DNA from: Mucilaginibacter sp. L3T2-6
Lineage (GTDB): Bacteria; Bacteroidota; Bacteroidia; Sphingobacteriales; Sphingobacteriaceae
Assembly (NCBI RefSeq): GCF_030519355.1
Contig: NZ_JAUMKC010000016.1
Coordinates: forward strand, 1-64,000
Reading direction: 5' to 3'
DNA: 64,000 nucleotides
This document shows positions 7,067-25,114 of the stretch, one piece after another. Every line of letters starts with the position of its first letter. Within the stretch, counting starts at the first letter, position 1. Below the pieces are notes generated by a model that was not told the DNA's origin, did no database searches, and was given only the letters and a program-made list of their open reading frames with translations. The position numbers and the translations under genes were made by a program.

Positions 7067-8289
7067 AAACGAAACTAAAAATCATACTCACCATGCTCAT
7101 TTGCAGTGCGGGTGTCGTCAAAGCGCAGACATTGCCTTTGGACAGTGTGCTAGCAAAAGTAGCTGCAAACCCCTCGCTGCAAGCTTACGACGCAAAAGCT
7201 AAGGCACAGAATGCCTATGCAGATGGTGCGAAAAATCTCGATGCGCCAAAGCTAAGCGCGGGACAATACCAGGTGCCTTACCAGCTGAGTCCGAATGGCG
7301 GTTCGTTCATGATACAGGGAGAGCAAATGTTTACCAACCCGGCAAAGCTGCGCGCAAAAGAAGATTATTTGAAAGGCCAATCCAAAGTTACCTCAGCTGA
7401 TAAGGACTATTTGAAAAACCAACTATTCGCGCAGGCCAAGCAATATTATTATGAACGCGTGGTACTGGAAAAAAAACTTGCCCTATTGCAGCAAACGCAA
7501 AGCTTGCTGGAATATATGCTGAAAGACGCCAATATCAGGTTAACATATAACAAGGAGAAGCTGCCTAATATCTATAAGGCTAAGGCTGAATTATATGAAC
7601 TTGACAATACACGTGAGGAACTGCGCGATGGCATCAGCCAACGGAATATCCTGCTTAACACGCTGATGAACCGGGATAAAACTGCACCGTTCGCAGTGGA
7701 TACCACTATTACGCTCAAAGATTATGAAGCGGCAATTACTGACACGACAGCTTTAGCAAATAGCCGTAGTGACATTAAGGGCATTAACCGAAATATCGAC
7801 TTGCAGCAACTGAACGCTCAAATGGAATACAGCAAACGTAAGCCCGATTTTGGCATACAAGCGGCGCACATGTTTAGTTATGGAGGTTATCCTAATCAGT
7901 ATATATTAATGGCTTCTATAACAATACCAATTGCGCCGTGGTCGTCAAAAGAATACAAGGCTAATTTGAAAGGCGTCAGGTTTGAAACAGAAGAATTGCA
8001 GCAGAAAAAATTGGATATCCTCAACCAAACCGCAGGACAGTTAGCTGGCCTTAAAGCCGGCATGGGCAGTAAGAAAAAGCAGCTTGATAATTATCAGCAA
8101 AATATTATCCCTGCCTTGCAAAACGGCTATAAAACGGCTTTGCAGGCTTATGACCAAAACACCGGCGATCTGCCATCGGTGCTTAACGGAATCAAGGATC
8201 TGCAAATGGCAAGAATGACTGCCCTTGACCGCTTACAGGAACTATTAACCTTACAGGTAGCTTATGAAAAAGAGATTGAAAAATATTAG
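7063..8289 (+). CDS. TolC-family outer-membrane efflux protein
   Basis: A 408-aa protein with a signal peptide (ending VVKAQ near residue 22) and long amphipathic helices typical of OEP/TolC channels, including the repeated coiled regions around residues 100-200 and 300-400. It forms the outer-membrane exit duct of the tripartite pump. The start overlaps the cusA stop by four bases and the end overlaps the next adaptor by 26 bases, so the genes form one tightly packed operon. The copper substrate is inferred from the neighbours. Confidence 0.85.
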   Translation: MKTKLKIILTMLICSAGVVKAQTLPLDSVLAKVAANPSLQAYDAKAKAQNAYADGAKNLDAPKLSAGQYQVPYQLSPNGGSFMIQGEQMFTNPAKLRAKEDYLKGQSKVTSADKDYLKNQLFAQAKQYYYERVVLEKKLALLQQTQSLLEYMLKDANIRLTYNKEKLPNIYKAKAELYELDNTREELRDGISQRNILLNTLMNRDKTAPFAVDTTITLKDYEAAITDTTALANSRSDIKGINRNIDLQQLNAQMEYSKRKPDFGIQAAHMFSYGGYPNQYILMASITIPIAPWSSKEYKANLKGVRFETEELQQKKLDILNQTAGQLAGLKAGMGSKKKQLDNYQQNIIPALQNGYKTALQAYDQNTGDLPSVLNGIKDLQMARMTALDRLQELLTLQVAYEKEIEKY

Positions 8290-9529
8290 CCTGATCGTAG
8301 CCATCTTATCCGGTGCGACGTTGATTTCTGCGTGTTCAAATGAGCAAAAGAAACCCGCCGCATCGCAAGTGAAAGCGGCAGTGAAATACACCTGTCCGAT
8401 GCATCCGCAGGTATTGGAAGACCACCCCGGAACTTGCCCGATTTGTGGCATGACGCTGGTGAAAAAAGCGGGCCAGGCCAGTAAAGACGCAGGTATCAGT
8501 TTGAATACCGTTTTGAAACCGGTTAACAATTCGGTTGTGTCGTCGGTCGCGGCGATAACACCGGAGCAAAAAGCTATTCCGACAACCGTTTCAGCAAATG
8601 GTTACCTCGATTTTGATACCCGAACATTTAATAATATCGCCTCGCGCTTTTCAGGCCGTATCGAAAAACTGTATATTAAATATGCGTTCCAGGAAATTCA
8701 TCGCGGCCAGCGCATCTTTGATATTTACAGCCCTGAACTGCTCACAGCACAACAGGACCTGATCTTTCTCAGCAAAAATTCATCGCAGGAAGCTGGAATA
8801 ATGCAAGCGGCCAAGCAGAAATTGTTATTGCTGGGGATGACCGACGCCCAAGTTGAACAAGTTGTCAAATCCGAGAAAGCGTTCTACAGCTTGCCGGTAT
8901 ATAGTCCTTATGACGGTCATGTTCACGATATGCCGCATAGCCAAATGTCAGGCACTTCGGATAACCAAATGCCGCTTGACCTAACCGGAAACCTTCCGTT
9001 GTCAATCAAGGAAGGCATGTATGTCGAAAAAGGGCAAACACTATTCAATGTCGTCGACCCGCACATGCTTTGGGCGATTATTAAGGTTTATGCTTCATCT
9101 ATTGCTGCTATAAAACTGCATCAGGCGGTTACGCTATCACTTGCCGACAACACGGATAAAACACTGAGCGGCCAGGTAGATTTTATCGAGCCAACATTGC
9201 AGGTCGGCGATAAAACGACAAGTATCCGAGTGTATCTGCATAATATGAACCATGAGCTAAAAGTGGGCAGCCTGGTAAAAGCTCAAATAGAGACCGGAAA
9301 TGAGCGTGGCTTATGGATACCGCGAACTGCGCTGGTTGATTTGGGGCGAACAAAAATAGTCTGGCTAAAAACCGGGGCAGCATATAGCGTACACCAGGTC
9401 GAGACCGGTATCAATGAGGGGAACGAAATTCAGATCACAAAAGGAATAACTGTCGCGGATAGTATTGCGGTAAACGCGCAGTATTTGTCGGACAGTGAAA
9501 GCTTCATAAAAACGCAAAGCAATGAATAA
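8264..9529 (+). CDS. cusB: RND periplasmic adaptor lipoprotein with metal-binding domain (CusB-like), copy 1
   Basis: A 421-aa lipoprotein (lipobox LISAC, C24). A heavy-metal-binding domain follows at about residues 42-70 (YTCPMHPQV ... CPICGMTLVKK), then the membrane-fusion-protein body: barrel-sandwich halves around IASRFSGRIEKLYI and MYVEKGQTLFNVVD, a helical hairpin between them (SPELLTAQQDLI), and a beta-barrel domain (LSGQVDFIEPTL). It links the inner-membrane pump to TolC and probably hands metal to it. It overlaps tolC by 26 nt and the second adaptor by 8 nt. Two adaptors in one pump operon is notable. Confidence 0.85.
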   Translation: MKKRLKNISLIVAILSGATLISACSNEQKKPAASQVKAAVKYTCPMHPQVLEDHPGTCPICGMTLVKKAGQASKDAGISLNTVLKPVNNSVVSSVAAITPEQKAIPTTVSANGYLDFDTRTFNNIASRFSGRIEKLYIKYAFQEIHRGQRIFDIYSPELLTAQQDLIFLSKNSSQEAGIMQAAKQKLLLLGMTDAQVEQVVKSEKAFYSLPVYSPYDGHVHDMPHSQMSGTSDNQMPLDLTGNLPLSIKEGMYVEKGQTLFNVVDPHMLWAIIKVYASSIAAIKLHQAVTLSLADNTDKTLSGQVDFIEPTLQVGDKTTSIRVYLHNMNHELKVGSLVKAQIETGNERGLWIPRTALVDLGRTKIVWLKTGAAYSVHQVETGINEGNEIQITKGITVADSIAVNAQYLSDSESFIKTQSNE

Positions 9530-10739
9530 GATAAAAATAGCAATAGGGTTCTTAGCTTTATTAGGACTTGCCGCATGCAAACCCAAACCGCAGCAACAGG
9601 CAGTCGCAAAGGTGCAGGCAAAGGCTTATTATACCTGCTCCATGCACCCGCAGGTACATGAGGATCACCCCGGCAATTGCCCCATTTGCAGCATGAAACT
9701 GATCAAGGTGGAGATTACGGGAACTGATGCGATGAATAGTAATAAAATCGTGTTGACAGCTACGCAGATCCGTTTGGCGGGTATTCAAACTGATACCGTT
9801 TGCGATGAAAACACCGGGGTTGAAAAAACACTGACCGGAACGGTAACAACAGACGAAAGCAAGACAGACGAATTGAGCGCGAGGGTTGCAGGGCGCATAC
9901 AGCAGTTATTTGTTAGAACAGTTGGTGAAAAAGTAAGTATAGGTCAGCCAGTTTACACTATTTACAGTGAAGACTTACAGGAGGCAGAAAAAGAATATTT
10001 GCTCGCTCGGCAGCAGCAAAAAATACTGCACAACCCGGATGTTGATTATGGGCAACTCACTAGCAGTGCCGAAAACAAATTACTGCTATGGGGATTATCA
10101 CCCGAACAGATCAGGAATCTAGCGCAATCTGGTAAGGTATCGGCTACAGTTACTGTATTGAGCAAAATCGCGGGTACTGTTAGCGATATAGCAATTCATG
10201 AGGGCGACTATGTTACTGAAGGAATTACTGTTCTCAAAACACAAGCCTTAAATACGCTTTGGATAGAGGCACAATTATATGCATCCGAGGCGGGAAATTA
10301 TCACGTGAACGACAAAGTAAATGTTTCCTTACCCGACCTGAGCGGACAGATTGTTGCAGGCAAAGTTGAATTTATCAATCCGGAATTATCAGGCCAATCC
10401 AAAGTAGATTTGGTAAGAATCCGTATTTCCAACCCGCAGGGATTAATTCGCCCCGGTATGCACGCTTATATCTCTATCGGCTCGGAAGGCAAGCGTAGTT
10501 TGGCTGTACCAGCATCAGCCGTTTTGGTTGATGGCAAGGGAAGTTTGGTGTGGGTTAAAAATGCCGATGGCAGCTTTTCGCCAAAAATGGTGTCAATCGG
10601 TTCAGGCAATCAAAACTATGTGCCGGTAATTTCAGGGCTAAATAAGGGTGACGTGGTGGTTACAAGTGGTGCCTATTTAATGAACAGTGAAGCGATATTT
10701 AAGAATGGGAGCGACAACATGGCCGGAATGAAAATGTGA
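9522..10739 (+). CDS. RND periplasmic adaptor lipoprotein with metal-binding domain (CusB-like), copy 2
   Basis: A 405-aa lipoprotein (lipobox LAAC, C19) with the same layout as the preceding gene: metal-binding domain (YTCSMHPQV ... CPICSMKLIKV), barrel-sandwich hybrid, short hairpin and beta-barrel. The usual glycine of CPICGM is serine here. The C-terminus is Met-rich and ends AGMKM. The sequences of the two adaptors have diverged clearly, so this is an old duplication rather than an assembly artefact. They may form mixed hexamers, or one may serve another pump (inference). It converges on the following minus-strand gene with a 12-nt gap. Confidence 0.85.
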   Translation: MNKIKIAIGFLALLGLAACKPKPQQQAVAKVQAKAYYTCSMHPQVHEDHPGNCPICSMKLIKVEITGTDAMNSNKIVLTATQIRLAGIQTDTVCDENTGVEKTLTGTVTTDESKTDELSARVAGRIQQLFVRTVGEKVSIGQPVYTIYSEDLQEAEKEYLLARQQQKILHNPDVDYGQLTSSAENKLLLWGLSPEQIRNLAQSGKVSATVTVLSKIAGTVSDIAIHEGDYVTEGITVLKTQALNTLWIEAQLYASEAGNYHVNDKVNVSLPDLSGQIVAGKVEFINPELSGQSKVDLVRIRISNPQGLIRPGMHAYISIGSEGKRSLAVPASAVLVDGKGSLVWVKNADGSFSPKMVSIGSGNQNYVPVISGLNKGDVVVTSGAYLMNSEAIFKNGSDNMAGMKM

Positions 10740-13760: not shown

Positions 13761-14210
13761 ATGAAATGGATCACCCGTGAACGGCCAAAAATAGACCGTA
13801 TTGCCTGCCCCTGGCTCATCAAAAACTTTGTTGACAGCGAGGCGGAATTCATTTATGTGCCAAAAGAAGAAGTTTTTGAAAAGGCTGAAATGCTTAATGC
13901 GATCCCATACGATATACCCGGTACGGAATATTCGCATGAAGGGGAACGATGCACGTTTGATTATATCGTGAAAAAACACGAATTGACCGATCCGGCGATT
14001 TTGCAGATCGCTGAAATTGTACGTGGTGCTGATACCGCACGCTTTGACCTGGCACCGCAAGCAGCCGGTCTTTGGGCCATTTCTGCTGGATTGTCGTATA
14101 ATTTTCGCAATGACCATGAGCAACTTGATTTTGGCATGCAGATTTACAATGCCTTATATAGTTGGGCGAAATATGTACAGGAGGAAAAACATACATGGCA
14201 GAACAACTGA
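13761..14210 (+). CDS. chrB: stand-alone ChrB-domain chromate resistance protein
   Basis: A 149-aa single-domain protein (MKWITRERPKIDRIACPWLI ... CTFDYIVKK ... IVRGADTARFDLAPQAAGL ... YNALYSWAKYV). It corresponds to the C-terminal domain of classical ChrB and to the N-terminal half of the fusion at 11840, from which it probably arose by duplication. It overlaps the start of chrA by 16 nt, indicating coupled translation. Its likely role is in chromate resistance, either as an enzyme acting on chromate or a partner of the transporter; the family's chemistry is not settled. Confidence 0.8.
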   Translation: MKWITRERPKIDRIACPWLIKNFVDSEAEFIYVPKEEVFEKAEMLNAIPYDIPGTEYSHEGERCTFDYIVKKHELTDPAILQIAEIVRGADTARFDLAPQAAGLWAISAGLSYNFRNDHEQLDFGMQIYNALYSWAKYVQEEKHTWQNN

Positions 14211-15376
14211 TCAAAAGTAAACCAGTGTACTCGCTTTGGGATATTACTAAATATTACCTGAAGCTGGGCACCTGGGGCTTTGGCGGCCCGGTAGCTTTAG
14301 TAGGTTATATGCACCGCGACCTGGTAGAAGATAAAAGCTGGTTGACCGAGGAAGAATATAAAGAGGGGTTGGCCTTAGCACAACTGGCACCAGGGCCGTT
14401 AGCGGCGCAATTGGGTATTTATATCGGCTTTGTACATTATGGCCTGATCGGTGCGACTTTAACGGGATTGGCTTTTGTATTGCCCTCGTTTATTATGGTT
14501 GTCTTAATAGGGATGGCTTACCGGCTCTACGGAGGGTTGCCGTGGATGCAAGCCGTATTTTATGGCGTTGGTGCTGCGGTCATCGGTATCATCGCCATGA
14601 GCGCATATAAGCTTACAATCAAGACGATTAGCAAATTTGAAATAGTTGCCATGAAAGGTAAATGGCTTCTGTGGCTATTTTACATTATCGGAATCCTTAT
14701 TACCGTTATTACTCAAAAAGAAGAGATCATTTTGTTTTTGGCTTGCGGCATCCTGTATATGCTAATCAAAGCCCCGCCGCGCTGGATCAGGAAACCGACC
14801 GCTGTACCTGTCGGAATTTTGTTTTCCGTTAGTTTCTGGAAATATGACAGTAAGCTCCTACCTGAGATCGGCTGGTTCTTTTTAAAAGCAGGCGCATTTG
14901 TGTTTGGGAGCGGGCTAGCTATCGTTCCTTTCCTCCATGGTGGAGTGGTTAAGGAGTTTGGCTGGTTAAATGAAAAACAGTTTTTGGATGCTGTGGCAGT
15001 GGCAATGATAACACCGGGGCCGGTAGTGATCACGGTTGGTTTTATCGGCTATATAGTCGCCGGATTTCCTGGAGCCTGTGTAGCAGCCTTAGCGACTTTT
15101 TTACCGTGCTACCTTTTCACGATAGCCTTAGCGCCGTCGTTTAAAAAGATTGCTAAAAACGCAGGTATCAAAGCTTTCGTTGACGGGATTACCGCCTCTG
15201 TTATTGGGGCCTTAGTCGGCTCGGTGATTATCATCGGGTTGCGGTCAATTATTGATATTCCGACTACATTAATCGCAATTACTGCGGTATTAGCATTGAT
15301 CTACAACAATAAAATAAAAGAACCAGCTATCATTGGGACTGCTGCGGTTATCGGCGCTGCGCTTAAATTATTGTAA
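14195..15376 (+). CDS. chrA: chromate transporter ChrA
   Basis: A 393-aa inner-membrane protein made of two homologous CHR domains. The first has KLGTWGFGGPVALVGYMHRD and LAQLAPGPLAAQLGIYIGF; the second has FLKAGAFVFGSGLAIVPFLH and AVAMITPGPVVITVGFIGY. Function: efflux of chromate from the cytoplasm. The start at 14195 is chosen because AGGAGG lies at 14179-14184, ten bases upstream; an in-frame ATG at 14162 lacks this. The gene is the last of the chromate module and faces the mobilization operon tail-to-tail across 78 nt. Confidence 0.9.
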   Translation: MAEQLIKSKPVYSLWDITKYYLKLGTWGFGGPVALVGYMHRDLVEDKSWLTEEEYKEGLALAQLAPGPLAAQLGIYIGFVHYGLIGATLTGLAFVLPSFIMVVLIGMAYRLYGGLPWMQAVFYGVGAAVIGIIAMSAYKLTIKTISKFEIVAMKGKWLLWLFYIIGILITVITQKEEIILFLACGILYMLIKAPPRWIRKPTAVPVGILFSVSFWKYDSKLLPEIGWFFLKAGAFVFGSGLAIVPFLHGGVVKEFGWLNEKQFLDAVAVAMITPGPVVITVGFIGYIVAGFPGACVAALATFLPCYLFTIALAPSFKKIAKNAGIKAFVDGITASVIGALVGSVIIIGLRSIIDIPTTLIAITAVLALIYNNKIKEPAIIGTAAVIGAALKLL

Positions 15377-15454: not shown

Positions 15455-16180
15455 TTATCGGCTTATTCCTGGGCCGCGGTCATAGCCCTGGTCTAAATCT
15501 TCTCCGGGGCCTCTGTCTTTTTTTTGTATCCGGTTTTGCTGTTGCTGCTGTTTCTCAGCGAGGAGTTGAGCCCGAGCCGAAATATTTTGTACCAGCTTAT
15601 TTGCCCAATCCGGTATTTGTTCGGCCTGCTCTTTAATCTGCCCATTTTCAATTTTTAAATAGGGATGGAATTTTAAAGCTTGTTGATTGTCCGATGCAAA
15701 GCTTCTGACCAATAGCACCTCATCAAAATCCCGGAAATGATTTTGCAGGTTTTTGAGCCCCTCATTGTAATTGGCGGTAATGTTATCTAAAGTGACATCA
15801 TGTCCACCCATTGCCACCCTTACTTTTACCCGTTCAACAGATGCCTCCAGGCTGTCCAGGCCAAAATAAACAAGCCGTGCTTCATATCCTTTGTTCTTAA
15901 ATTGATTAACGGTGTTCATGACCTCTGCAGACCTGAAATTGGTTTCAAAAGCACAATCCATACGCCTTGTCTGCACCTGATCTTTCCAATCGGAAAAAAT
16001 ATGTCCGTTTACGGCTTCATACAGGTTTCCACTGTCAAGACCGGGGAATTTCTGTCTTAACAGGGCCAATTCTTTATCGCCGTCAAATACCGGGGTGCCC
16101 GGAGGCAGCATAGCGGCGGACAGCGTGCTCTTGCCGGCGCCATTAGGCCCCGCAAAAACATACAGTTTTGGCTGCTCCAT
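15455..16180 (-). CDS. zeta-toxin-family P-loop kinase
   Basis: A 241-aa protein with an N-terminal Walker A (AGPNGAGKST, about residues 9-18), then VFDGDKE, FETNFRS and the family pattern RVKVRVAMGGHDVTLDNI. In zeta toxins this fold phosphorylates a nucleotide-sugar precursor of peptidoglycan; that activity is not proven here. The C-terminal 40 residues are Gln-rich and polar (QQQQQNRIQKKDRGPG). The start overlaps the stop of the upstream 132-aa gene by one base, as in toxin-antitoxin pairs. It is the last gene of the leftward mobilization operon, so it may help maintain the element. Confidence 0.75.
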   Translation of the reverse strand: MEQPKLYVFAGPNGAGKSTLSAAMLPPGTPVFDGDKELALLRQKFPGLDSGNLYEAVNGHIFSDWKDQVQTRRMDCAFETNFRSAEVMNTVNQFKNKGYEARLVYFGLDSLEASVERVKVRVAMGGHDVTLDNITANYNEGLKNLQNHFRDFDEVLLVRSFASDNQQALKFHPYLKIENGQIKEQAEQIPDWANKLVQNISARAQLLAEKQQQQQNRIQKKDRGPGEDLDQGYDRGPGISR

Positions 16181-16578
16181 TAGAAATTCCTATTGAGAAT
16201 TTGGCTTTGCCCTGTGGTACTATCTGTCCTGACCAATTCCCTGTGGTCGGCATATTGGCGGACAAACATATTTTTAGATTTGGCATCCCCGGTGTACTGA
16301 TAAACATTGTATTGACCGGCATTCAAATGCTGGGCTTCGACCTTTTCAATTTCCGGGCGCAGTCTGTCTTCAAGCTCTTTTAGAGAACATTCAAAGATCG
16401 GTTTATAAGTTAACTGCTCCATTAGCCGGTGTAATTCGGAATGCTTATCAATCGAGGGTGCTACCTTAGACCAGTGTTTTAACGGAATAAGAACACCGAC
16501 GGGTTCCTGCCTGGCATTGACAAAAATACTTAGGGTGTCCTGCCCGGCAAATTCATTCAAATTTAACGATTTGTTCAT
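16180..16578 (-). CDS. putative antitoxin partner of the zeta-type kinase
   Basis: A 132-aa protein of no firmly recognised family. The segment SIFVNARQEPVGVLIPLKHW (about residues 17-36) resembles the core of Phd/YefM antitoxins, where a short dimer strand is followed by PVAVLxSLxxY. The C-terminal half (NVYQYTGDAKSKNMFVRQYA) is rich in polar residues. It overlaps the zeta gene by one base (TAATG). Position, coupling and the Phd-like motif suggest it neutralises the kinase, which would be an unusual Phd-zeta pairing. Inference only. Confidence 0.5.
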   Translation of the reverse strand: MNKSLNLNEFAGQDTLSIFVNARQEPVGVLIPLKHWSKVAPSIDKHSELHRLMEQLTYKPIFECSLKELEDRLRPEIEKVEAQHLNAGQYNVYQYTGDAKSKNMFVRQYADHRELVRTDSTTGQSQILNRNF

Positions 16579-16589
16579 GGCAATACAAA

Positions 16590-17123
16590 TTATTGTTTAA
16601 CAATCGGATAGCTATGGGCGGCTGATTTTCGCCCCATACCACCCTTTCTGTGCACGGGTTTTTCGGTAGCCGGGTGCTCATCAGGTAACGGGGCAACCGG
16701 TTGGATATTTCTGGTGTTGAGCATATCACTGAGCGTATGCACTTCCCAGCCAAATCCAATCGTCAAACCGCAGAAAATGGACCCGACAACTACCAAAAGA
16801 AAGTAAATAATGAACATCCATTTGGATTTTGCGTTGAAATGATGGTGGTGTTCGACCGGGATCACCTTGGGCACTGCATCTATCCGTTTATCCAGTATTG
16901 CGCAACGCGCCTCGAAATTTTTTTTGTAGTTGTCATTTAAACCTTTTAATTCATTCCTGATGGCTGCCAGTTCCGCGCTATGGTCAGGCGCATAAACCTT
17001 TGGATAGGAATCTGCTTTAGTTTCCAGCTTAGCAATCCTCTCGGCTTGTTCCTGGCTGTGCTTGACCAGTTGATCGGTAATCTCTTCCTGGCTGTTTAGC
17101 CGTTCTTTGAGTTGATTTTCCAT
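16590..17123 (-). CDS. coiled-coil membrane protein of the mobilization operon
   Basis: A 177-aa protein. Residues about 5-85 are strongly charged with heptad character (coiled coil). A His cluster (VEHHHHF) precedes one transmembrane segment (about residues 108-130, WMFIIYFLLVVVGSIFCGL), followed by a short Pro-rich tail. It lies between the relaxase and antitoxin-like genes. Similar proteins occur next to Bacteroidota relaxase genes and might anchor the relaxosome to the membrane; no function is established from the sequence. Confidence 0.6.
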   Translation of the reverse strand: MENQLKERLNSQEEITDQLVKHSQEQAERIAKLETKADSYPKVYAPDHSAELAAIRNELKGLNDNYKKNFEARCAILDKRIDAVPKVIPVEHHHHFNAKSKWMFIIYFLLVVVGSIFCGLTIGFGWEVHTLSDMLNTRNIQPVAPLPDEHPATEKPVHRKGGMGRKSAAHSYPIVKQ

Positions 17124-17159
17124 ACGATTTGTGTTGTATCATTTCCTAAATAATAACCT

Positions 17160-18128
17160 TTATAAATGCATCGAACTTTCATGATCTTGCGAATAACCCC
17201 GCCCCTTTTTCTTTTTTCGGCGGAACTGGCTGTCATCCATTGCCGGCTGATTGCCGAAATGAGACTCCTCCAACAGGGTGCCCAGCAATGATGGCCTGCT
17301 GCCCTTGATGCCAGGCGTCGATACGTGCTGCTGGCTGTTTTCACGCATGCGTTCGCGTAGCTGGTCGGCCAAAGATTGCCGTGGCCGTTGTTCCTGCGCT
17401 ACACGCTGGCTGATGAATGCAGACAACCGACCATAACTGAGGCTGCGGTCGATTTCCGATCCTTTGAATTTATACTGCCCTTTAGTGAAACTGATGCCCT
17501 GAACCTCCTGCGTACCGCTTTTATACTTATACTGCATACCAATGCCTTGTTTCTTCAATTGTTGTTGCAGTTCATCCATGCTACGCACTTTTTGGCTAAC
17601 GGTTTTAATGGTATCAAAAAGTTCGTATTTCACTTTATCCGGTCCTTTGAGCTGTTGACGGTTAACATGCTCCTTACCCTGGCTTAGGTGCAACCCCTGT
17701 TTCAGCGTCAGCGATTTACTGATCTTGACATTTTGCCAGCGTTGCATGCTGTCTGATATGGTTTTTCCGGCATAATCGACCCGGTTATACACGATATGCA
17801 GGTGTGGATGTTTAGTGTCGTTATGTTTGACGATCAGCATTTGGGTATCACCAATTTTCATCCTTTGTAAATACTCCTGCGCAATCGTCAGCATGCGTTC
17901 ATTGGTCAGTTTGGGGGCGTCCTCGGGGCTAAAATTCAGCGCAATATGACCTACTGCTTGCCCCAGCCCCGGGTTGAGTTTCCGCTGCATATTAAAATCA
18001 GCAATGGTCTGCCTGATGTCCTCTGCACGTACTCCCTCGGCGTGTAATACCTCTGCTTTATTTTTGAGCATACAATACTCCACGCAGCCCTTAAAGCTCT
18101 TTCCCGATTTCACGATCTTGCCCATCAT
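17160..18128 (-). CDS. mobB: relaxase / mobilization nuclease (MobB-like)
   Basis: A 322-aa MOB-type relaxase. Motif I lies in the N-terminal region (SGKSFKGCVEYCM, candidate catalytic Tyr18). The metal-binding histidine triad is formed by H61 (GHIALNF) and HPHLH (residues 107-111, followed by IVYNR). The C-terminal third is basic and probably disordered (RRKKKKGRG). It would nick oriT and stay covalently bound to the transferred strand, using conjugation machinery from another element because no type IV secretion genes are present here. Its start overlaps the MobA-like gene by 38 nt. Confidence 0.9.
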   Translation of the reverse strand: MMGKIVKSGKSFKGCVEYCMLKNKAEVLHAEGVRAEDIRQTIADFNMQRKLNPGLGQAVGHIALNFSPEDAPKLTNERMLTIAQEYLQRMKIGDTQMLIVKHNDTKHPHLHIVYNRVDYAGKTISDSMQRWQNVKISKSLTLKQGLHLSQGKEHVNRQQLKGPDKVKYELFDTIKTVSQKVRSMDELQQQLKKQGIGMQYKYKSGTQEVQGISFTKGQYKFKGSEIDRSLSYGRLSAFISQRVAQEQRPRQSLADQLRERMRENSQQHVSTPGIKGSRPSLLGTLLEESHFGNQPAMDDSQFRRKKKKGRGYSQDHESSMHL

Positions 18129-18510
18129 GGTTATTCAAGTATTTTAAAGTATCATCAATTTCGACCAGCAGGCTATCGCATTTACGGGCGATAAACAACA
18201 GCTTGCCGCTGTTTGCCTGTTTGGCCAGCTGATTCAGGTTGTTTGCCATCCCGGTCAGCACACGTAATACCTGCATTTGTTCGGGTGTCCAGCGCGATGA
18301 TATTTTTGCAGCCTTGGCTGCCTGCCTGATCCAGGTGCTGGCGCGCATGCCGGCTTCCCTGGCTTTTGCCCGGATCAAAAACAGCTCCGCAGCATTGATC
18401 CTGATCCTTAATACCTGATCACGTCTGACCTTTCCTTTTGGCCTGCCGCCCTTACTTTTTGGGCGAACTGACGCGGATTTCTGTGCTGTTTTTTGCGGTA
18501 CTGTTGTCAT
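18091..18510 (-). CDS. mobA: MobA/MobC-like relaxosome accessory protein
   Basis: A 139-aa basic protein with a ribbon-helix-helix-type DNA-binding region (DQVLRIRINAAELFLIRAKA, then STWIRQAAKAAKI) and a C-terminal bundle (MANNLNQLAKQANSG), as in mobilization accessory proteins of Bacteroidota and in MobC. The start at 18510 is chosen because the upstream extension to 18642 runs through the inverted-repeat region and is not protein-like. It probably binds oriT, here proposed at 18519-18675, and recruits the relaxase. Confidence 0.8.
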   Translation of the reverse strand: MTTVPQKTAQKSASVRPKSKGGRPKGKVRRDQVLRIRINAAELFLIRAKAREAGMRASTWIRQAAKAAKISSRWTPEQMQVLRVLTGMANNLNQLAKQANSGKLLFIARKCDSLLVEIDDTLKYLNNHDGQDREIGKEL

Positions 18511-18518
18511 ATTGGTTT

Positions 18519-18675
18519 TACTACACGACGCATAAATTCTTAATAAATCCTTGATTCTCTTTTTGCGACCATCGGGAGCAAAAAGCAAGTTTGCCTGCCT
18601 GCCGAAGGCATGGCGGGAGTTTTTGTGGTAACAAAAACACAAACTTGCTTCTTACTACGACGCAACTATCCCGAT
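18519..18675. other. nested inverted repeats, candidate oriT
   Basis: Between the MobA-like gene and the winged-helix gene are three perfect nested inverted repeats: ATCGGGA/TCCCGAT (18571-18577 and 18669-18675), AAGCAAGTTTG/CAAACTTGCTT (18583-18593 and 18640-18650) and GTTTTTGT/ACAAAAAC (18619-18626 and 18631-18638, 4-nt loop). A near direct repeat, TACTACACGACGCA (18519-18532) and TACTACGACGCA (18653-18664), flanks the core. Such symmetry directly upstream of mob genes is typical of transfer origins. The nic site is not identified. Confidence 0.55.
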
Positions 18676-18703
18676 AGACTGCTAAATGTAAAATGCACTG
18701 CTA

Positions 18704-19021
18704 TTAAAGCCCTGCTGTCACTTCAGGCCAGTAGATCAGACTGCCATTTTTCGGGTGGTAAGACGGCTGGTAGCGGATATAGCCAAAGCGATCCAGCTCT
18801 TTTATGCACTTATGGTAGGTGGCAATCGAAGCAATTTTGCTTAGGTTCATCAGTTCACGCCGGTTCACTGCGAACGGGCTGTTAAATTCACTGCGATGCC
18901 AGCAGATAAATAAAGCTGTAAACAGGCTGACGTGCGTAGCCAGCATCCTGCCATCGGTTGCCATGCGCCTGATCCATTTGCTGTAATCGGCCGTTTCTTT
19001 TTGATTCGCTGCCTGTATCAT
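18704..19021 (-). CDS. winged-helix protein of the mobile element
   Basis: A 105-aa protein whose C-terminal two thirds (FAVNRRELMNLSKIASIATY, then CIKELDRFGYIRYQPSYHP) look like a winged helix-turn-helix of the replication-initiator or regulator type. Its ATG overlaps the stop of the upstream HTH gene by four bases. Common in Bacteroidota mobilizable elements between the excisionase-like genes and mobA; function unknown, perhaps control of transfer or replication. Confidence 0.6.
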   Translation of the reverse strand: MIQAANQKETADYSKWIRRMATDGRMLATHVSLFTALFICWHRSEFNSPFAVNRRELMNLSKIASIATYHKCIKELDRFGYIRYQPSYHPKNGSLIYWPEVTAGL

Positions 19022-19281
19022 TTACGGCCCCCTTCCAGTACTTTATGGATATCCTCTAATTTATAGTACATCATCCCACCTATCTTGGTATAGCGCAGTG
19101 TGCCGTTGATCCGCAGGTTTTGCAATGTACCTGGAGAGATATTCAGCAGCTTCCTGACCTCAACGCTTTTCAGCCATTGTTTGCTTTGTGCCTGACCGGG
19201 CTGCAACAGGGCTTTCATTTCTGTTAATAACTCATTTTTGAATGTCGCCAGATCCTGCCTGGTAATTAATTCTACTTGCAT
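19018..19281 (-). CDS. helix-turn-helix (excisionase-like) protein
   Basis: An 87-aa protein with an N-terminal helix (LATFKNELLTEMKALLQ) and a C-terminal MerR/excisionase-type HTH (SVEVRKLLNISPGTLQNLRI, then GTLRYTKIGGMMYYKLEDI). It is closely similar in layout and sequence to the orphan gene at 26179-26478 and more distantly to 223-489. Part of the leftward operon; likely a regulator or recombination directionality factor. Confidence 0.75.
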   Translation of the reverse strand: MQVELITRQDLATFKNELLTEMKALLQPGQAQSKQWLKSVEVRKLLNISPGTLQNLRINGTLRYTKIGGMMYYKLEDIHKVLEGGRK

Positions 19282-19296
19282 CTTCTTTCCTTTCTG

Positions 19297-19563
19297 TTAA
19301 TTATTAAAATTTTGTTGCATAATTTTGAGCACTTCGCTCTTTTTGAAATAGACCCTTTTGTGCAGGCGAAGAAAAGGCAGCCCTTTCTTCATCCAGTCGG
19401 TAAGGGTAACCAGTGACACGCCCAGTTCTGCGGCCAGTTCCTGTTTGGACAGCAGCCGCTCCTCGGCTGGCTGGCTGCCTGCTGTTCTAAAATGTTCCTG
19501 TAGTTCTGCCCTGACCGCTTCCCTGATGCACTGACTGAGGGCTTCATTATTGATGATCTGCAT
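19297..19563 (-). CDS. helix-turn-helix (excisionase-like) protein
   Basis: An 88-aa protein: N-terminal amphipathic helix (ECIRE/LQEHF region), then an HTH_17-type DNA-binding domain (SKQELAAELGVSLVTLTDWM) with a wing strand (LHKRVYFKKSEVL). It is the first gene of the leftward mobilization operon. A perfect palindrome at 19609-19632 lies 46 nt upstream and could be its operator. Likely controls excision or transfer genes (inference). Confidence 0.75.
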   Translation of the reverse strand: MQIINNEALSQCIREAVRAELQEHFRTAGSQPAEERLLSKQELAAELGVSLVTLTDWMKKGLPFLRLHKRVYFKKSEVLKIMQQNFNN

Positions 19564-19608
19564 AGCATTTGTTTTGGGGCAAATGTGTGCTATACAGTTA
19601 AGTTTTCG

Positions 19609-19632
19609 TTACCATGCGGTTCCGCATGGTAA
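19609..19632. promoter_or_regulatory. perfect 24-bp palindrome upstream of the HTH operon
   Basis: TTACCATGCGG and CCGCATGGTAA are perfect inverted arms of 11 bp separated by TT. The dyad lies 46 nt upstream of the first HTH gene, where an operator would be expected. It is not followed by a T-tract. Confidence 0.55.
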
Positions 19633-19736
19633 ATTGAAGGGGTTTAAGTTAAGCCGATTTCGTTTGGCAATATGCTCAATATCAGCTTGATGGTATTAAT
19701 GACAATAGCAGGCTGAAAAAAAATTGTGCGGCTGCT

Positions 19737-20498
19737 TTAACTGCGCTTTTTGATAGACTTAATCTCGAAAAGTTGTTGATCTGCGGCGATAGTAGCCGAA
19801 CGGTTACTTGGTTTGCTTCTGTCTTTTGGGAAATAACGTCGGACCCGGTCAAAGTCGATCTCCTCGTGACCCTCCCGGAAATACTTGCAGATCAGTTTGA
19901 CATAGACGATGGGAAATTCTGCAAATAACAACTCCTTACCTTCCGGCAGCTTAAGGTCCAGCATTTTGATGCCCAAATCAAGAAAAGCGAGCAGCCTGCC
20001 TTTGGGTATATTGATATACTGTTTGGTGTCGAGGCTTGTTGCTTTTTTCAATTCGGATTTCAGCGCTGCGATCTGTTGTTTAAGGGTATGGATTTCCGAT
20101 TCCTGCTGCGCGATCACAGCGTCATTTGATTTGTGGAAATGCCATTGGTCAAGCGGAATCAGTATTTCGGTAAATTTTCTAAGCCGCTGGATTTCGCGCT
20201 CATTCCGGATATGGTTTTTATCATACACATCCTTACCGGTCAGCACTTTTAATTGTCTTTCGACCATATCCCATAAATATTTAAAAAAGGATTCTTCGTT
20301 ACCGTCCGGATGGTTGGCTAAATAATAAGCCAAGTGGTGCCGGTAAAATTCGCCCAGCCGGTCATCACCAATGGCAAAAACGCGCTTAAAAAAGTGCTTT
20401 AGAAAATGGGCGCGGTTCCAGGAAAGCGGGTTGCCAATATCAAGTGTATCGCTTGCAAAATCAAAACGGTCACGGTGTTTGAAATAGGTATTACTCAT
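19737..20498 (-). CDS. uncharacterised mobile-element protein with coiled coil
   Basis: A 253-aa protein that I do not recognise as a known family. The first 120 residues are rich in aromatic and His residues (LGEFYRHHLAYYLANHPDG, FFKYLWDMVERQL). A coiled coil occupies about residues 125-160 (AQQESEIHTLKQQIAALKSE). The C-terminal part has a positively charged, possibly DNA-binding segment (DFDRVRRYFPKDRSKPSNRS). It lies at the edge of the element next to the recombinase region, where Bacteroidota elements often encode RteC-type regulators, but RteC hallmarks are not evident. Confidence 0.5.
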   Translation of the reverse strand: MSNTYFKHRDRFDFASDTLDIGNPLSWNRAHFLKHFFKRVFAIGDDRLGEFYRHHLAYYLANHPDGNEESFFKYLWDMVERQLKVLTGKDVYDKNHIRNEREIQRLRKFTEILIPLDQWHFHKSNDAVIAQQESEIHTLKQQIAALKSELKKATSLDTKQYINIPKGRLLAFLDLGIKMLDLKLPEGKELLFAEFPIVYVKLICKYFREGHEEIDFDRVRRYFPKDRSKPSNRSATIAADQQLFEIKSIKKRS

Positions 20499-20585
20499 AG
20501 GTTGTTTTAGTCATAGATGAACAAAGCTACTATTCGGTTCGTAGTTTGTCAAAAACAGGTTCGGGAACAATTTGGGTAAATTAAA

Positions 20586-20616
20586 TTGTGATAATTTGTA
20601 TGAATTCGTATCTTTG
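20586..20616 (+). promoter_or_regulatory. strong Bacteroidota-type promoter with no ORF downstream
   Basis: TTG (20586-20588) and TATCTTTG (20609-20616, exact match to TAnnTTTG) are 20 nt apart, the optimal spacing. Transcription would start near 20622 and run into the intrinsic terminator at 20756-20791. Confidence 0.55.
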
Positions 20617-20711
20617 ATGTAAGTCCTTTGCAGTCATTTAGTTGCAAAAAATTGGTGAGCATCTGGTGAGCACCAAGACAAAAACTTTGTTTTTAGCGAA
20701 ATTAGGGCATA

Positions 20712-20734
20712 GTTCATGTCCCGTCCATTCCGCT
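20712..20734 (+). other. tRNA 3'-end-like sequence, possible attachment site
   Basis: GTTCATGTCCCGTCCATTCC followed by G resembles a tRNA T-loop (TTC), the 3' T-stem strand, a 7-nt acceptor strand CCATTCC and discriminator G, as in serine tRNAs. No matching 5' half is present. Such isolated 3' fragments followed by the tRNA terminator mark the end of an element integrated in a tRNA gene. The T-loop position 58 is not A, so the match is imperfect. Confidence 0.35.
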
Positions 20735-20755
20735 AAGAAGCCTTAAAAGCTTCGT

Positions 20756-20791
20756 AAAAGCGCTTAGATTACTGGTCTAAGCGCTTTTTTT
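20756..20791 (+). terminator. intrinsic terminator
   Basis: AGCGCTTAGA (20759-20768) and TCTAAGCGCT (20776-20785) pair perfectly around a 7-nt loop. Flanking AAAA and TTTT extend the stem, and a run of seven T (20785-20791) follows. A textbook rho-independent terminator. Confidence 0.85.
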
Positions 20792-20847: not shown

Positions 20848-21121
20848 GGTGACTGGTCCGGAACACCTAATTTAGTCATCAAATTGATAGTTAACTATTT
20901 GTAAATCAATTATTTGACCCCATAAAATCGAGCCTCAAAACAGCTCGTTTTATATCAAGTTTTAGGATTTGCAAACCGTCTGGATAAGGCCTGATATCGG
21001 ATGAGTTTAAATCACCTCGGTCCCGTTTGGTCCGAGGGTTCGGGTCCCGGTAAAAATGATGCAAATCTTAATTTTGGTGACTATTGCGGTGACCTATTTT
21101 ATCCACTTGAAAAAGGTCACC
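20848..21121. repeat. spaced GGTGAC repeats upstream of the recombinase
   Basis: GGTGAC occurs at 20848-20853, 21076-21081 and 21088-21093 (12-bp spacing), and as GGTCACC on the opposite strand at 21115-21121. Two GGTGAGC copies lie on the other side of the terminator at 20654-20660 and 20665-20671 (11-bp spacing). Spacing near one helical turn fits arm-type binding sites of a tyrosine recombinase. The rest of the 20499-21232 interval holds no gene that I can support. Confidence 0.4.
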
Positions 21122-21171
21122 GAGTATGGGGTTAATTGATTGATTTTAAAGCGCTTGAATAAGTGAGAATT

Positions 21172-21198
21172 GGTCGCGAAAAGCGAGTTTTCGTGACC
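21172..21198. promoter_or_regulatory. inverted repeat upstream of the integrase gene
   Basis: GGTCGCGAAAA (21172-21182) and TTTTCGTGACC (21188-21198) form an 11-bp inverted repeat with one mismatch and a 5-nt spacer, 34 nt upstream of the integrase ATG. It may be an operator or a leader hairpin controlling recombinase synthesis. Its ends share the GGTC/GACC motif with the neighbouring repeats. Confidence 0.45.
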
Positions 21199-21232
21199 TG
21201 ATTAATTATCAGGTATTTAAAATTTTATTCAA

Positions 21233-22498
21233 ATGAAAAATGCACAGAAGTTTTCAGTCCTGATCTGGGCTGACAAAAGAAAAACGGATTCACAGGGAAT
21301 GGTTCCGCTTTATGCAAGGATCACCTATCTGAGCAAACGTTGTGAGATTTCCCTAGGGCGAAAAGTTGATCCAAAAAAGTGGGACGCAGAAACAGGGTAT
21401 TTAAGAGGCAACGGCTCGGAGGCTAGGGATGTCAACACTCAAATCATAGAAGCGACCAATGAGATCCGCCGGGCCTTTGACGATCTGAAACGTACGGAAG
21501 ATTTTATTACGGCTGAAAAAATCAAACAGAAATACACCGGTGAAGGAAACATTCATCGCATGTTATTGGAGGTATTTGACGAGCACAATAATCAACTCGA
21601 AAAACTGCTGGATAAAGATTTTGTAAGGGCTACGCTTACCAAGTATAAAACCGTTCGTAAAAAGACAGCCGAATATATTCAGTTCCGGTATAAGAAACCT
21701 GATGTTTATCTGGAGTCTATCGATTACTCTTTCGTAACCGGTTTAGAGATGTACCTGAAAACTGAGGATAAGATCGAGCATAACACCGCCATGCGGTATA
21801 TCAAAAACCTCAAAAAGATCATCAACCTGGCGGTCAATAATCAATGGATGAGCCATAACCCATTCAACCTTTTTAAATGCACTTATAATAAGGTCAACCG
21901 CGTGGAACTGGAATGGGAAGAGATCAATCTGCTGGCCGAGTATCATTTTAAAGTGAAACGATTGGCTGAAGTGCGCGATACCTTTTTGTTTTGCTGCTAC
22001 ACCGGTTATGCTTTTGTTGACGTGGATAAACTAACCCCTCAACATGTGGTTACTGGTACCGATGGGGTAACCTGGATCAAGACCACCCGAACCAAAACTG
22101 CTATCGAGGCCAACGTTCCGTTAATTCCACAAGCCATAGAAATTATTGAGCGCTATGCAGAGCATGACGCCCGCATAATCGAGAACAGGTTGTTGCCGGT
22201 AAAGAGCAATCAAAAGATGAATGCCTATTTAAAGGAGATCGGCGATCTGGCCGGTATCGAAAAGGTGTTAACCACCCACATCGCGCGGCACACTTTCGCG
22301 ACTACAGTTACCCTTGAAAATGATGTGCCCTTAGAAACGGTAAGTAAGATGCTTGGCCATACCAAGTTAACGACTACGCAAATCTACGCGAAAATGAAAG
22401 ATAAAAAGGTTAACCGGGATATGCAGGCGTTAAAGACCCGATTGAAAATTATGGGAGAAAGCAATCTAAATGAAATTGTTGAGGAGGAGATGGTATGA
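21233..22498 (+). CDS. int: tyrosine recombinase (integrase), IntDOT-like class
   Basis: A 421-aa site-specific recombinase. The N-terminal arm-binding domain (about residues 5-90, FSVLIWADKRKTDSQGMVPL) is followed by a SAM-like core-binding domain and the catalytic domain with HIARHTFAT (HxxR, near residue 347), LGHTKLTTTQIY (catalytic Tyr near residue 384). The first catalytic Arg, normally in TGLRxxD, is absent; the segment reads TGYAFVDVDKL, as in many Bacteroidota integrases of the IntDOT type. The stop overlaps the next gene by four bases. Upstream lie GGTGAC repeats and an inverted repeat. It would integrate and excise this or an adjacent element. Confidence 0.9.
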   Translation: MKNAQKFSVLIWADKRKTDSQGMVPLYARITYLSKRCEISLGRKVDPKKWDAETGYLRGNGSEARDVNTQIIEATNEIRRAFDDLKRTEDFITAEKIKQKYTGEGNIHRMLLEVFDEHNNQLEKLLDKDFVRATLTKYKTVRKKTAEYIQFRYKKPDVYLESIDYSFVTGLEMYLKTEDKIEHNTAMRYIKNLKKIINLAVNNQWMSHNPFNLFKCTYNKVNRVELEWEEINLLAEYHFKVKRLAEVRDTFLFCCYTGYAFVDVDKLTPQHVVTGTDGVTWIKTTRTKTAIEANVPLIPQAIEIIERYAEHDARIIENRLLPVKSNQKMNAYLKEIGDLAGIEKVLTTHIARHTFATTVTLENDVPLETVSKMLGHTKLTTTQIYAKMKDKKVNRDMQALKTRLKIMGESNLNEIVEEEMV

Positions 22499-23523
22499 AT
22501 TTAGAAAAATCAATTATTACAGATATTCAATCGATTATCAGTAAGGCGAGAGAATCAGCAATACGTGCAGTAGACCATGAACGCGTTGTAATGTATTGGC
22601 AGATCGGCAAAAGAATTTTTGAAGAAGATCAAGCCGGTGAAGAGCGGGCCAAATACGGTTCTCAATTATTGAAGTTTTTATCTGACGAGCTTCAGCCAAA
22701 ATATGGAACTGGGTTTTCGCGGCGGAATTTAGAATGGTTCAGGCAATTTTACAGAACATTTCCAATTGCGTCCGCACTGCGGACGCAATTGAGTTGGACA
22801 CATTACAAGCTGCTTTTAAGTTTAAGTAGTCAAGAGAAATTAGGTTTTTATTTAGAAGAAGCCGTCAAAAATAATTGGACGGCAAGGCAACTGGAGCGCC
22901 AAATAGGCAGTCAGCTTTATGAACGAATGTTATTAAGTACTGATAAAGAAAAGGTTTTGTCGGTTGCGAAAAATGAACAGCAGCCTGACAAACCACAGGA
23001 TATCATTAGAGATCCAATGATACTGGAATTTTTAGGATTAAAACCAGAGGCTGCCTATTATGAAAAGGATCTTGAAAATGCATTGATTACCCATTTGCAG
23101 GAATTTATGCTGGAATTGGGTAACGGGTTTTCATTTGTAGCCCGTCAAAAGCGTATCCATCTTGATGGTGATGACTTTTTTGTTGACCTAATATTTTATA
23201 ACAGGCTATTACAATGCTTTGTCATCATAGAACTGAAAACGCATAAGATCACGCACCAGGATATTGGTCAATTGCAGATGTATGTAAACTATTATGACCG
23301 CGTTGAAAAGCTCGAGTATGAAACATCAACGGTGGGTATATTATTATGCCTGGAGAAAAATGATACTGTCGTAAAATTCACTTTGCCCGAGAACAGTAAC
23401 ATATTTGCCTCAAAATACCAGCTTTATCTGCCATCAGCCGAACAGCTGGCCAGTGAAATAGAGAAAGAGATCAGCAAGCAAAAGGCATTGGGACAGGAAG
23501 ATCCTTCAGTTGACACTCATTAG
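22495..23523 (+). CDS. DUF1016/YhcG-family PDDEXK nuclease
   Basis: A 342-aa protein. The N-terminal DUF1016_N region (about residues 5-150) contains VVMYWQIGKRIFEEDQAGEE, FSRRNLEWFRQFY and QLSWTHYKLLLSL. The C-terminal PDDEXK nuclease core contains FVDLIFYNRLLQCFVIIELK followed by DIGQLQMYVNYYD. Family members are predicted nucleases linked to mobile elements and restriction islands. Translation is coupled to the integrase through an ATGA overlap. A perfect 14-bp inverted repeat lies inside the coding sequence (22763-22791). A strong terminator follows, so int and this gene form a two-gene unit. Confidence 0.85.
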   Translation: MNLEKSIITDIQSIISKARESAIRAVDHERVVMYWQIGKRIFEEDQAGEERAKYGSQLLKFLSDELQPKYGTGFSRRNLEWFRQFYRTFPIASALRTQLSWTHYKLLLSLSSQEKLGFYLEEAVKNNWTARQLERQIGSQLYERMLLSTDKEKVLSVAKNEQQPDKPQDIIRDPMILEFLGLKPEAAYYEKDLENALITHLQEFMLELGNGFSFVARQKRIHLDGDDFFVDLIFYNRLLQCFVIIELKTHKITHQDIGQLQMYVNYYDRVEKLEYETSTVGILLCLEKNDTVVKFTLPENSNIFASKYQLYLPSAEQLASEIEKEISKQKALGQEDPSVDTH

Positions 23524-23546
23524 AATTGCTTTTCCAATTTGATTTC

Positions 23547-23590
23547 AAACGGATTGTGAATGCACTTCATTCACAATCCGTTTATTTTTT
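23547..23590 (+). terminator. strong intrinsic terminator
   Basis: AAACGGATTGTGAATG (23547-23562) and CATTCACAATCCGTTT (23568-23583) form a perfect 16-bp stem with a 5-nt loop, followed by ATTTTTT. It ends the int-nuclease unit. Confidence 0.9.
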
Positions 23591-23606
23591 AGTAAAATTA
23601 CGCCTA

Positions 23607-23627
23607 TTGGATGACCCTGTCGTCCAA
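23607..23627. promoter_or_regulatory. candidate MocR autoregulatory operator
   Basis: TTGGATGAC (23607-23615) and GTCGTCCAA (23619-23627) are inverted 9-bp arms with one mismatch, ending 11 nt before the mocR ATG. The TTGGATG half-site recurs, as its complement CATCCAA, upstream of the convergent oxidoreductase gene. Confidence 0.45.
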
Positions 23628-23638
23628 AACGCAGCGTC

Positions 23639-25114
23639 ATGACCATTCAAACGATACCTTTCAGCAATCTGATATCGATCGATAGAACTTCCGCCATACC
23701 CTTATTCAGACAACTAGCGAACGCCTTATTGACGTTAATCAGAAATGGCAAAATTAAGCCGGGACATCGATTACCTTCAAGCCGTGAGATGGCTGCGATG
23801 ATCAAGCTTAACAGAACGACGGTGATCGCAGCCTATGATGAATTGAGATCGCAGGGATGGCTGGAAGTTTTCGGAAAAAAAGGAATATTTATTTCCAGTC
23901 AATTGCCGGTGATCAATCCAAAATCTTTTAAACCTGAAAAGCGGTTCACTCCGAAGGGTCTAAGTCAATCAGATTTTTATCGCCAGATCAATTTCGATCG
24001 CCCCCCTTACCGGGAGATAAAGCCATTTCATTTGCTCATCAACGATGGTTACCCGGATTCAAGGATCACACCAATTGACTCCTTGTTCAATCGTTATAAA
24101 GCATTATTGAGCAAAGCCGATCTTCACAGCCCGTTAATGACTGGTAATGTGGCCGGAAGTTTGTCGTTAAGAAGGGAACTTGCTGATTTTTTATCAAAAA
24201 CGAGAGCCTTAAATATTGAAACTGATAACGTACTGGTCTCACATGGCGCACAATTAGCAATTTATATAGCTGCAAGCATGGTACTGAAAGCTGGAAGTAC
24301 GGTGATCGTCGCCGATATGAATTATATACTAGCGGATAAGCTGTTTGAACAATTAGGTGCAAGACTGGTGAAAGTCAAAGTTGATGAGAACGGCATAGAT
24401 GTAGACGCGATCGAAGAAATTTGTAGCAGGTGCCTCCCAGACCTTTTATATATCATTCCGCACCATCATCACCCGACAACCGTAACCCTCAGCGCCGAAC
24501 GGAGAATGAAACTAGTGGATATTATCCGCAGATATCAACTGCCGGTGATAGAAGATGATTACGACTATGATTTTCATTATAACAATAGTCCTATATTGCC
24601 GCTGGCCAGCGCAGATCATAACGGCTATGTGCTGTATGTTGGTTCTATCTCTAAAACTTTAGCTCCCACTATACGATTGGGCTATCTGGTAGGCGACGCA
24701 GATTTTATTCGACAGGCATCAAGGCTTAAACAACTAATGGAAATACGCGGAGACGTTTTGTTTGAAGAGTCTGTGGCATATTTATTTACTACGGGCGAAT
24801 TCCAACGTCATTTACGAAGGTCGGTTAAATTATACCGGCAGCGTCGCGATCGGTTTTGCGAACTTTTAAAGACCTCGTTAGGCGATCTTATCCAATTTAC
24901 CATACCGCAAGGAGGCATGGCTGTTTGGATCGTTTTTCCCCAAGATTACTCTATAAGCGAGCTTTCGAAGCGGCTTTATGCCAAAGGAGTTTATCTGAAC
25001 GATGGCAGCCTTTATCGCTACTCAGATACCATAAACGGTATCAGGGTTGGTTTTGCTTCACTTAACGATGCCGAAATGGAAAAATTTGCCACAGCGCTTG
25101 CTCAAGTCAAATAA
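23639..25114 (+). CDS. MocR/PdxR-family regulator (GntR HTH plus aminotransferase domain)
   Basis: A 491-aa protein. Residues about 15-80 are a GntR winged helix (PLFRQLANALLTLIRNGKI, LPSSREMAAMIKLNRTTVIA). The remainder is a fold-type I aminotransferase domain with VIEDDYDYDFHY and the PLP-lysine motif GSISKTLAPTIRLGYL. Members of this family use PLP or an amine adduct as an effector and usually regulate vitamin B6 or amino-acid genes. The neighbouring convergent oxidoreductase has matching half-sites in its promoter and may be a target. An inverted repeat lies immediately upstream of the start codon. Substrate and regulon are unknown. Confidence 0.85.
   Translation: MTIQTIPFSNLISIDRTSAIPLFRQLANALLTLIRNGKIKPGHRLPSSREMAAMIKLNRTTVIAAYDELRSQGWLEVFGKKGIFISSQLPVINPKSFKPEKRFTPKGLSQSDFYRQINFDRPPYREIKPFHLLINDGYPDSRITPIDSLFNRYKALLSKADLHSPLMTGNVAGSLSLRRELADFLSKTRALNIETDNVLVSHGAQLAIYIAASMVLKAGSTVIVADMNYILADKLFEQLGARLVKVKVDENGIDVDAIEEICSRCLPDLLYIIPHHHHPTTVTLSAERRMKLVDIIRRYQLPVIEDDYDYDFHYNNSPILPLASADHNGYVLYVGSISKTLAPTIRLGYLVGDADFIRQASRLKQLMEIRGDVLFEESVAYLFTTGEFQRHLRRSVKLYRQRRDRFCELLKTSLGDLIQFTIPQGGMAVWIVFPQDYSISELSKRLYAKGVYLNDGSLYRYSDTINGIRVGFASLNDAEMEKFATALAQVK

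Follow-up and report, generated by a model that had tools for sequence, protein, structure and literature searches.

The window analyzed here is a 64,000-nucleotide stretch of a Mucilaginibacter sp. L3T2-6 contig (C7). Between its mobilization genes and a tyrosine integrase gene lies an intergenic segment that opens with a promoter-like sequence and closes with an intrinsic terminator, and that an initial annotation read as a possible small RNA unit with a tRNA-like 3' end. The features of the region are the following:

15455..20498, minus strand: mobilization and regulatory side of element A (Pfam/NCBIfam matches)
Within 15455..20498, minus strand: zeta-toxin-like ATPase (Pfam/NCBIfam)
17160-18128, minus strand: MobB-like relaxase (Pfam/NCBIfam)
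18091-18642, minus strand: MobC/NikA-like protein (Pfam/NCBIfam)
19297-19563, minus strand: HTH_17 protein (Pfam/NCBIfam)
19737-20498, minus strand: 253-aa protein, no Pfam/NCBIfam match
20522..20552, minus strand: separate divergent promoter-like site, TTG-N20-TAGCTTTG, 5' of the 253-aa gene and pointing away from the outward promoter
20586-20733, plus strand: right end (attR) of element A, with the outward promoter, two GGTGAGC repeats and the displaced last 21 nt of tRNA-Asp(GTC)
20586..20616, plus strand: predicted outward promoter of the element A right end, TTG (20586-20588), N20, TATCTTTG (20609-20616)
20627..20648, plus strand: imperfect inverted repeat TTTGCAGTCA...TTGCAAA, whose TTGCAGTCA half is found again, in inverted orientation, in the integrase promoter of the opposite element A end
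20654-20671, plus strand: proposed integrase arm-type sites, two direct GGTGAGC repeats (starts 20654 and 20665), 11 bp apart
20713-20733, plus strand: attachment core, the displaced tRNA-Asp(GTC) 3' end
20756-20788, plus strand: intrinsic terminator, first feature of the element B left end; 13 perfect pairs, or 15 with G-T pairs allowed
20848..21121, plus strand: element B left end, GGTGAC-type repeats at 20848, 21076 and 21088, inverted at 21116
21233..22498, plus strand: element B tyrosine integrase (domain matches Arm-DNA-bind_5, SAM_5 and Phage_integrase)

The supposed small RNA unit is a composite, in which the right end of one mobile element (element A) is followed by the left end of another (element B). 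Positions 20586-20788 are very probably the attR/attL seam of two elements that occupy one tRNA-Asp gene in tandem, and they include an outward promoter borne by the element; this confidence covers the identity of the junction and of the promoter and does not extend to what the promoter does. The initial annotation had the position right, between a mobilization module and an integrase, but the setting is a boundary between two elements and not a single unit. Its tRNA-3'-like segment is also present: of the 21 nt at 20713-20733, 19 are identical to the 3'-terminal 21 nt of tRNA-Asp, and 20718-20733 agrees exactly. The search it proposed for an intact tRNA with the shared segment located the one intact tRNA-Asp gene of the genome, at C3:2322-2398, which bears out the suggestion that the segment is a trace of integration. 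The core occurs only twice in this genome, in that gene and in the window fragment. The signature of an integrated element is thus present, with the intact tRNA at one end (C3:2322-2398) and the displaced 3' fragment at the other (C7:20713-20733), on contigs that are unjoined in the assembly; in sibling elements, both lie on one contig. The companion suggestion, that the tRNA's own promoter had been captured, does not hold, given that tRNA-Asp retains a promoter on C3 and the promoter here is part of the element right end.

Behind the intact tRNA-Asp, C3 carries a terminator, three GGTGAGC repeats and the tyrosine integrase gene int2, whose product is 42% identical to the element B integrase; a related integrase follows tRNA-Asp in 20 of the 29 loci examined. 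The putative GGTGAGC arm-type repeats are therefore found at both ends, two at the right and three at the left beside int2, and they recur in sibling elements. Given these repeats on both sides, together with sibling left and right ends that share one contig, element A appears to start on C3 and to end at 20733. We infer the join between C3 and C7, where both contigs end, and with it the linkage of int2 to the right end in the window. In at least nine genomes, left and right ends occur on one contig in the same orientation, 19-40 kb apart. G100 shows this order too, with another element immediately after the right end, and there homologs of the last mobilization-side genes lie about 2 kb from the orthologous right end. 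The 253-aa protein has homologs in sibling elements (41-54% identical). The GGTGAGC repeats are invariant in 14 right ends from 14 genomes (the window and thirteen aligned from the genus). Their distance to the core is 81-82 bp in twelve of these right ends and 70 bp in the other two, those of the window and one relative; the shorter distance differs by about one helical turn, as expected for a putative protein-DNA complex.

Element A would be a mobilizable island with metal-efflux cargo that int2 inserted at the 3' end of tRNA-Asp and that now separates the tRNA from an element B at this insertion site; these insertion and seam steps rest on sequence comparison. Its mobilization genes include a relaxase (PF03432) and NikA/MobC, and part of the element is off the contig. 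On its side of the junction, positions 3900-10739 encode a CusA-like efflux protein split in two ORFs (3900-5174 and 5171-7066), an outer membrane efflux protein and two CusB-like proteins, and a chromate transporter is encoded at 14162-15376.

The window sequence 3' of 20712 resembles, over about 530 bp, the tRNA-Asp/terminator/integrase loci of other Mucilaginibacter, which identifies the terminator and the integrase at 21233 as the left end of element B. Integrases 70-96% identical to that of element B are encoded directly 3' of tRNA-Asp in other Mucilaginibacter. Element B would be expected behind tRNA-Asp as well, but the 5' part of the tRNA is absent here. A search of the assembly for the core with up to 3 mismatches gave no convincing right end or second copy of element B, and integrase matches in a plasmid collection were weak only; element B may be incomplete, be very long or run into a contig end. 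Within the element B region 20848-25114, the integrase gene is overlapped by the next gene, which encodes a YhcG-type nuclease (22495-23523).

The 13-bp-stem terminator of the initial annotation lies at 20756-20788 with all 13 pairs perfect. A terminator follows the core in 12 of the 14 right ends and in 18 of 19 left ends, where it is strong. In the left-end terminators (L133-L152), a 33-nt hairpin stands about 24 nt after the core, and its stem sequence varies by element family. This combination of family-specific terminators and a constant place suggests that the islands supply the tRNA they restore with a terminator of their own. Tandem islands at tRNA-Asp(GTC) appear common, given that several other right ends also have a terminator behind them, at the distance usual for left ends. 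At other loci than the window, the 48-56 nt after an intact tRNA-Asp (L207) are 83-86% like the flanks beyond two right ends (L107 and L011), although the stretch compared is short. The best match to the flank of G083, considered as a clean empty site in G030, turned out to be the right end of another element beside a similar terminator. A literature search for tRNA-Asp islands in Bacteroidetes returned no papers.

The exact TAnnTTTG box at good spacing that the initial annotation described is present, and TTG-N20-TATCTTTG agrees with the consensus at 9 of 9 positions. The predicted promoter appears to be of the sigma-ABfr type, and the right-end pattern matches the consensus given for Bacteroidota promoters (PMC7366714). 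The match in the window alone is weak evidence: the full TTG-N19/20-TAnnTTTG pattern occurs 5 times in the 64 kb, versus 2.6 +/- 1.7 in dinucleotide shuffles, and a match within the 734-bp intergenic region has P = 0.044. Conservation is what makes the putative promoter credible. Among 26 non-redundant right ends of the genus, a non-random sample gathered via the shared tRNA core or similarity to the window right end, TAnnTTT(G/A) occurs at -138 to -110 from the core in 24 (shuffle mean 1.9, maximum 8), and exact TAnnTTTG occurs in 13 (0.65 in shuffles). A TTG stands 19-20 nt upstream of the box in 15 of 24, compared with at most 2 for any other spacing. The box in that stretch faces outward and is essentially missing on the opposite strand. 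It is kept in right ends with differing arm repeats (GGGAGTTAA, TTCGGTTACC, GGTGACTA and others), and in other genera of the family most right ends examined have it too, these having been located by similarity to a stretch starting near the promoter. In one further genome (G064, L128, around 1500-1700), a right end of like arrangement, with the promoter box and GGTGCGTAA repeats, borders on another core, CCCTAACTCTCCGCCACCA, which appears to be the 3' end of another tRNA, so the outward promoter is probably not confined to tRNA-Asp.

Directly 3' of the outward promoter is a site, TTGCAnTCAA, that also occurs, inverted, within the integrase promoter. In 11 of 12 elements, the left and right ends have matching variable bases in this site (permutation P 0.0006, with kinship ignored and the G036 left end taken from another copy). 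This agreement suggests one protein acting on both promoters, and an element protein probably controls the outward and integrase promoters together. The int2-type left ends carry a promoter-like site of their own, TTG-N20-CAATTTTG.

The proposal that the segment encodes an RNA mimicking a tRNA is not supported, nor is a structured RNA of another kind. ARAGORN found no tRNA or tmRNA gene and no cloverleaf in the unit, and Rfam gave no match at the gathering score; a relaxed E-value yielded weak sub-threshold matches, the best of them driven by the terminator. The covariation analysis that the initial annotation suggested, run from promoter to core on the 14 homologous right ends, found 0 of 11 predicted pairs covarying, with a consensus energy of -2.28 kcal/mol. 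The window unit does fold better than its shuffles (z -4.2), an excess that we attribute largely to the terminator, given that the part before the core has no conserved structure. The region is conserved in related elements, but in the pattern of a promoter with protein-binding sites and not of a structured RNA. The description of the unit as lacking an ORF was correct, given that its ORFs are short and end differently in relatives, with a 10-11 bp indel between the window and its relatives. A short ORF across the unit, reaching 58 aa in one relative, was considered and rejected on the same grounds of differing stops and a frame broken by the indel.

It is unlikely that the unit yields a functional small RNA, about 170-180 nt long, that contains the tRNA 3' fragment. 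A conserved promoter and terminator at a near-constant distance (169-180 nt in all pairs examined) would fit such a product, and an unstructured RNA could work by base pairing; against this stand the covariation and consensus energy values above, the missing cloverleaf and Rfam match, and the drift of the sequence beyond promoter, arms and core, which differs among element families. Bacteroidota small RNAs such as GibS (PMC7366714) are likewise intergenic, with their own TAnnTTTG-type promoter and an intrinsic terminator. Unlike them, the window unit is not conserved as RNA, lies on a recombination site and takes its terminator from whatever DNA follows the core. We regard it as still more doubtful that the box serves to bind a recombination protein and merely resembles a promoter. 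Its near-fixed distance to the arms (45 bp in 10 of 14 right ends) would be consistent with such a site, but TA and TTT are kept whereas the two "nn" positions change freely, the peak of TTG 19-20 nt upstream is the sigma-ABfr pattern (PMC7366714), and the box stays when the arm sequence is swapped. That the promoter is a chance match in an AT-rich intergenic region is highly improbable: the window should contain about 2.6 such matches by chance, but the count of 24 in 26 right ends against a shuffle maximum of 8 refutes chance as far as sequence comparison allows.

What, then, might a genuine outward promoter do? In the excised circle, with the predicted junction TTCATGTCCCGTCCATTCCGC followed by the C3 left end, it would face the integrase gene of element A itself, much as Pcirc does in ICEclc. 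By this analogy, which we hold tentatively and at somewhat less than even confidence, its role would be integrase expression in the circle. The intB13 transcript of ICEclc is listed with the promoter Pcirc (PMC2892462), which is described as constitutive and outward-facing (PMC6561031, PMC9286271). The likeness lies in an outward promoter at the integrase-distal end (in 24 of 26 right ends) that would face the integrase once the element is circular. The differences are that here a strong, conserved terminator intervenes, as does a promoter-like site belonging to the integrase, and that the phylum, sigma factor and element family are other ones, the promoter here being a predicted one. The terminator after the core in 18 of 19 left ends, together with the separate integrase promoter-like site, weakens the reading by analogy with Pcirc. 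In the circle transcript, this left-end terminator is again predicted to form and would limit read-through into the integrase gene. It is also possible, though on balance we doubt it, that the promoter sends RNA polymerase across the arms and the core, where it would dislodge or rearrange integrase/excisionase complexes and thereby set the excision frequency, with the RNA a by-product that is soon terminated. Retention of the promoter and downstream terminator while the transcribed sequence and arm repeats vary, the frequency of terminators after the core (12/14 right ends, 18/19 left ends) and the lack of conserved RNA structure would all fit such control by transcription; arms and core, however, would be retained for recombination regardless.

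The unexpected part is the promoter conserved in element ends. Element A resembles tRNA-targeted islands and IMEs with tyrosine integrases, namely the Islander class (PMC4383910) and the CTnDOT/IntDOT-like islands of Mucilaginibacter (PMC6316836), in having the integrase next to the regenerated tRNA, its far end marked by the displaced 3' fragment, accretion in tandem and metal-resistance cargo. Element A differs in targeting tRNA-Asp(GTC); the main text of the Mucilaginibacter island paper makes no mention of tRNA (PMC6316836).

In summary, a candidate tRNA-mimic RNA is removed and replaced by a testable general rule, that these islands carry a promoter firing through their own attachment site, and tRNA-Asp(GTC) emerges as a crowded insertion site with tandem islands. 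We put forward, as a conjecture that we think may well fail, that the outward promoter is obligatory in the right ends of Sphingobacteriaceae tRNA-Asp islands and is kept while integrases and DNA sites diverge. The act of transcribing the recombination site up to a terminator would then be a control step in excision or establishment, tied to the integrase promoter via a common regulator. A promoter that stays constant amid changing surroundings would offer a direct handle on integrase expression just after entry, and on low excision, in elements of the Bacteroidota.
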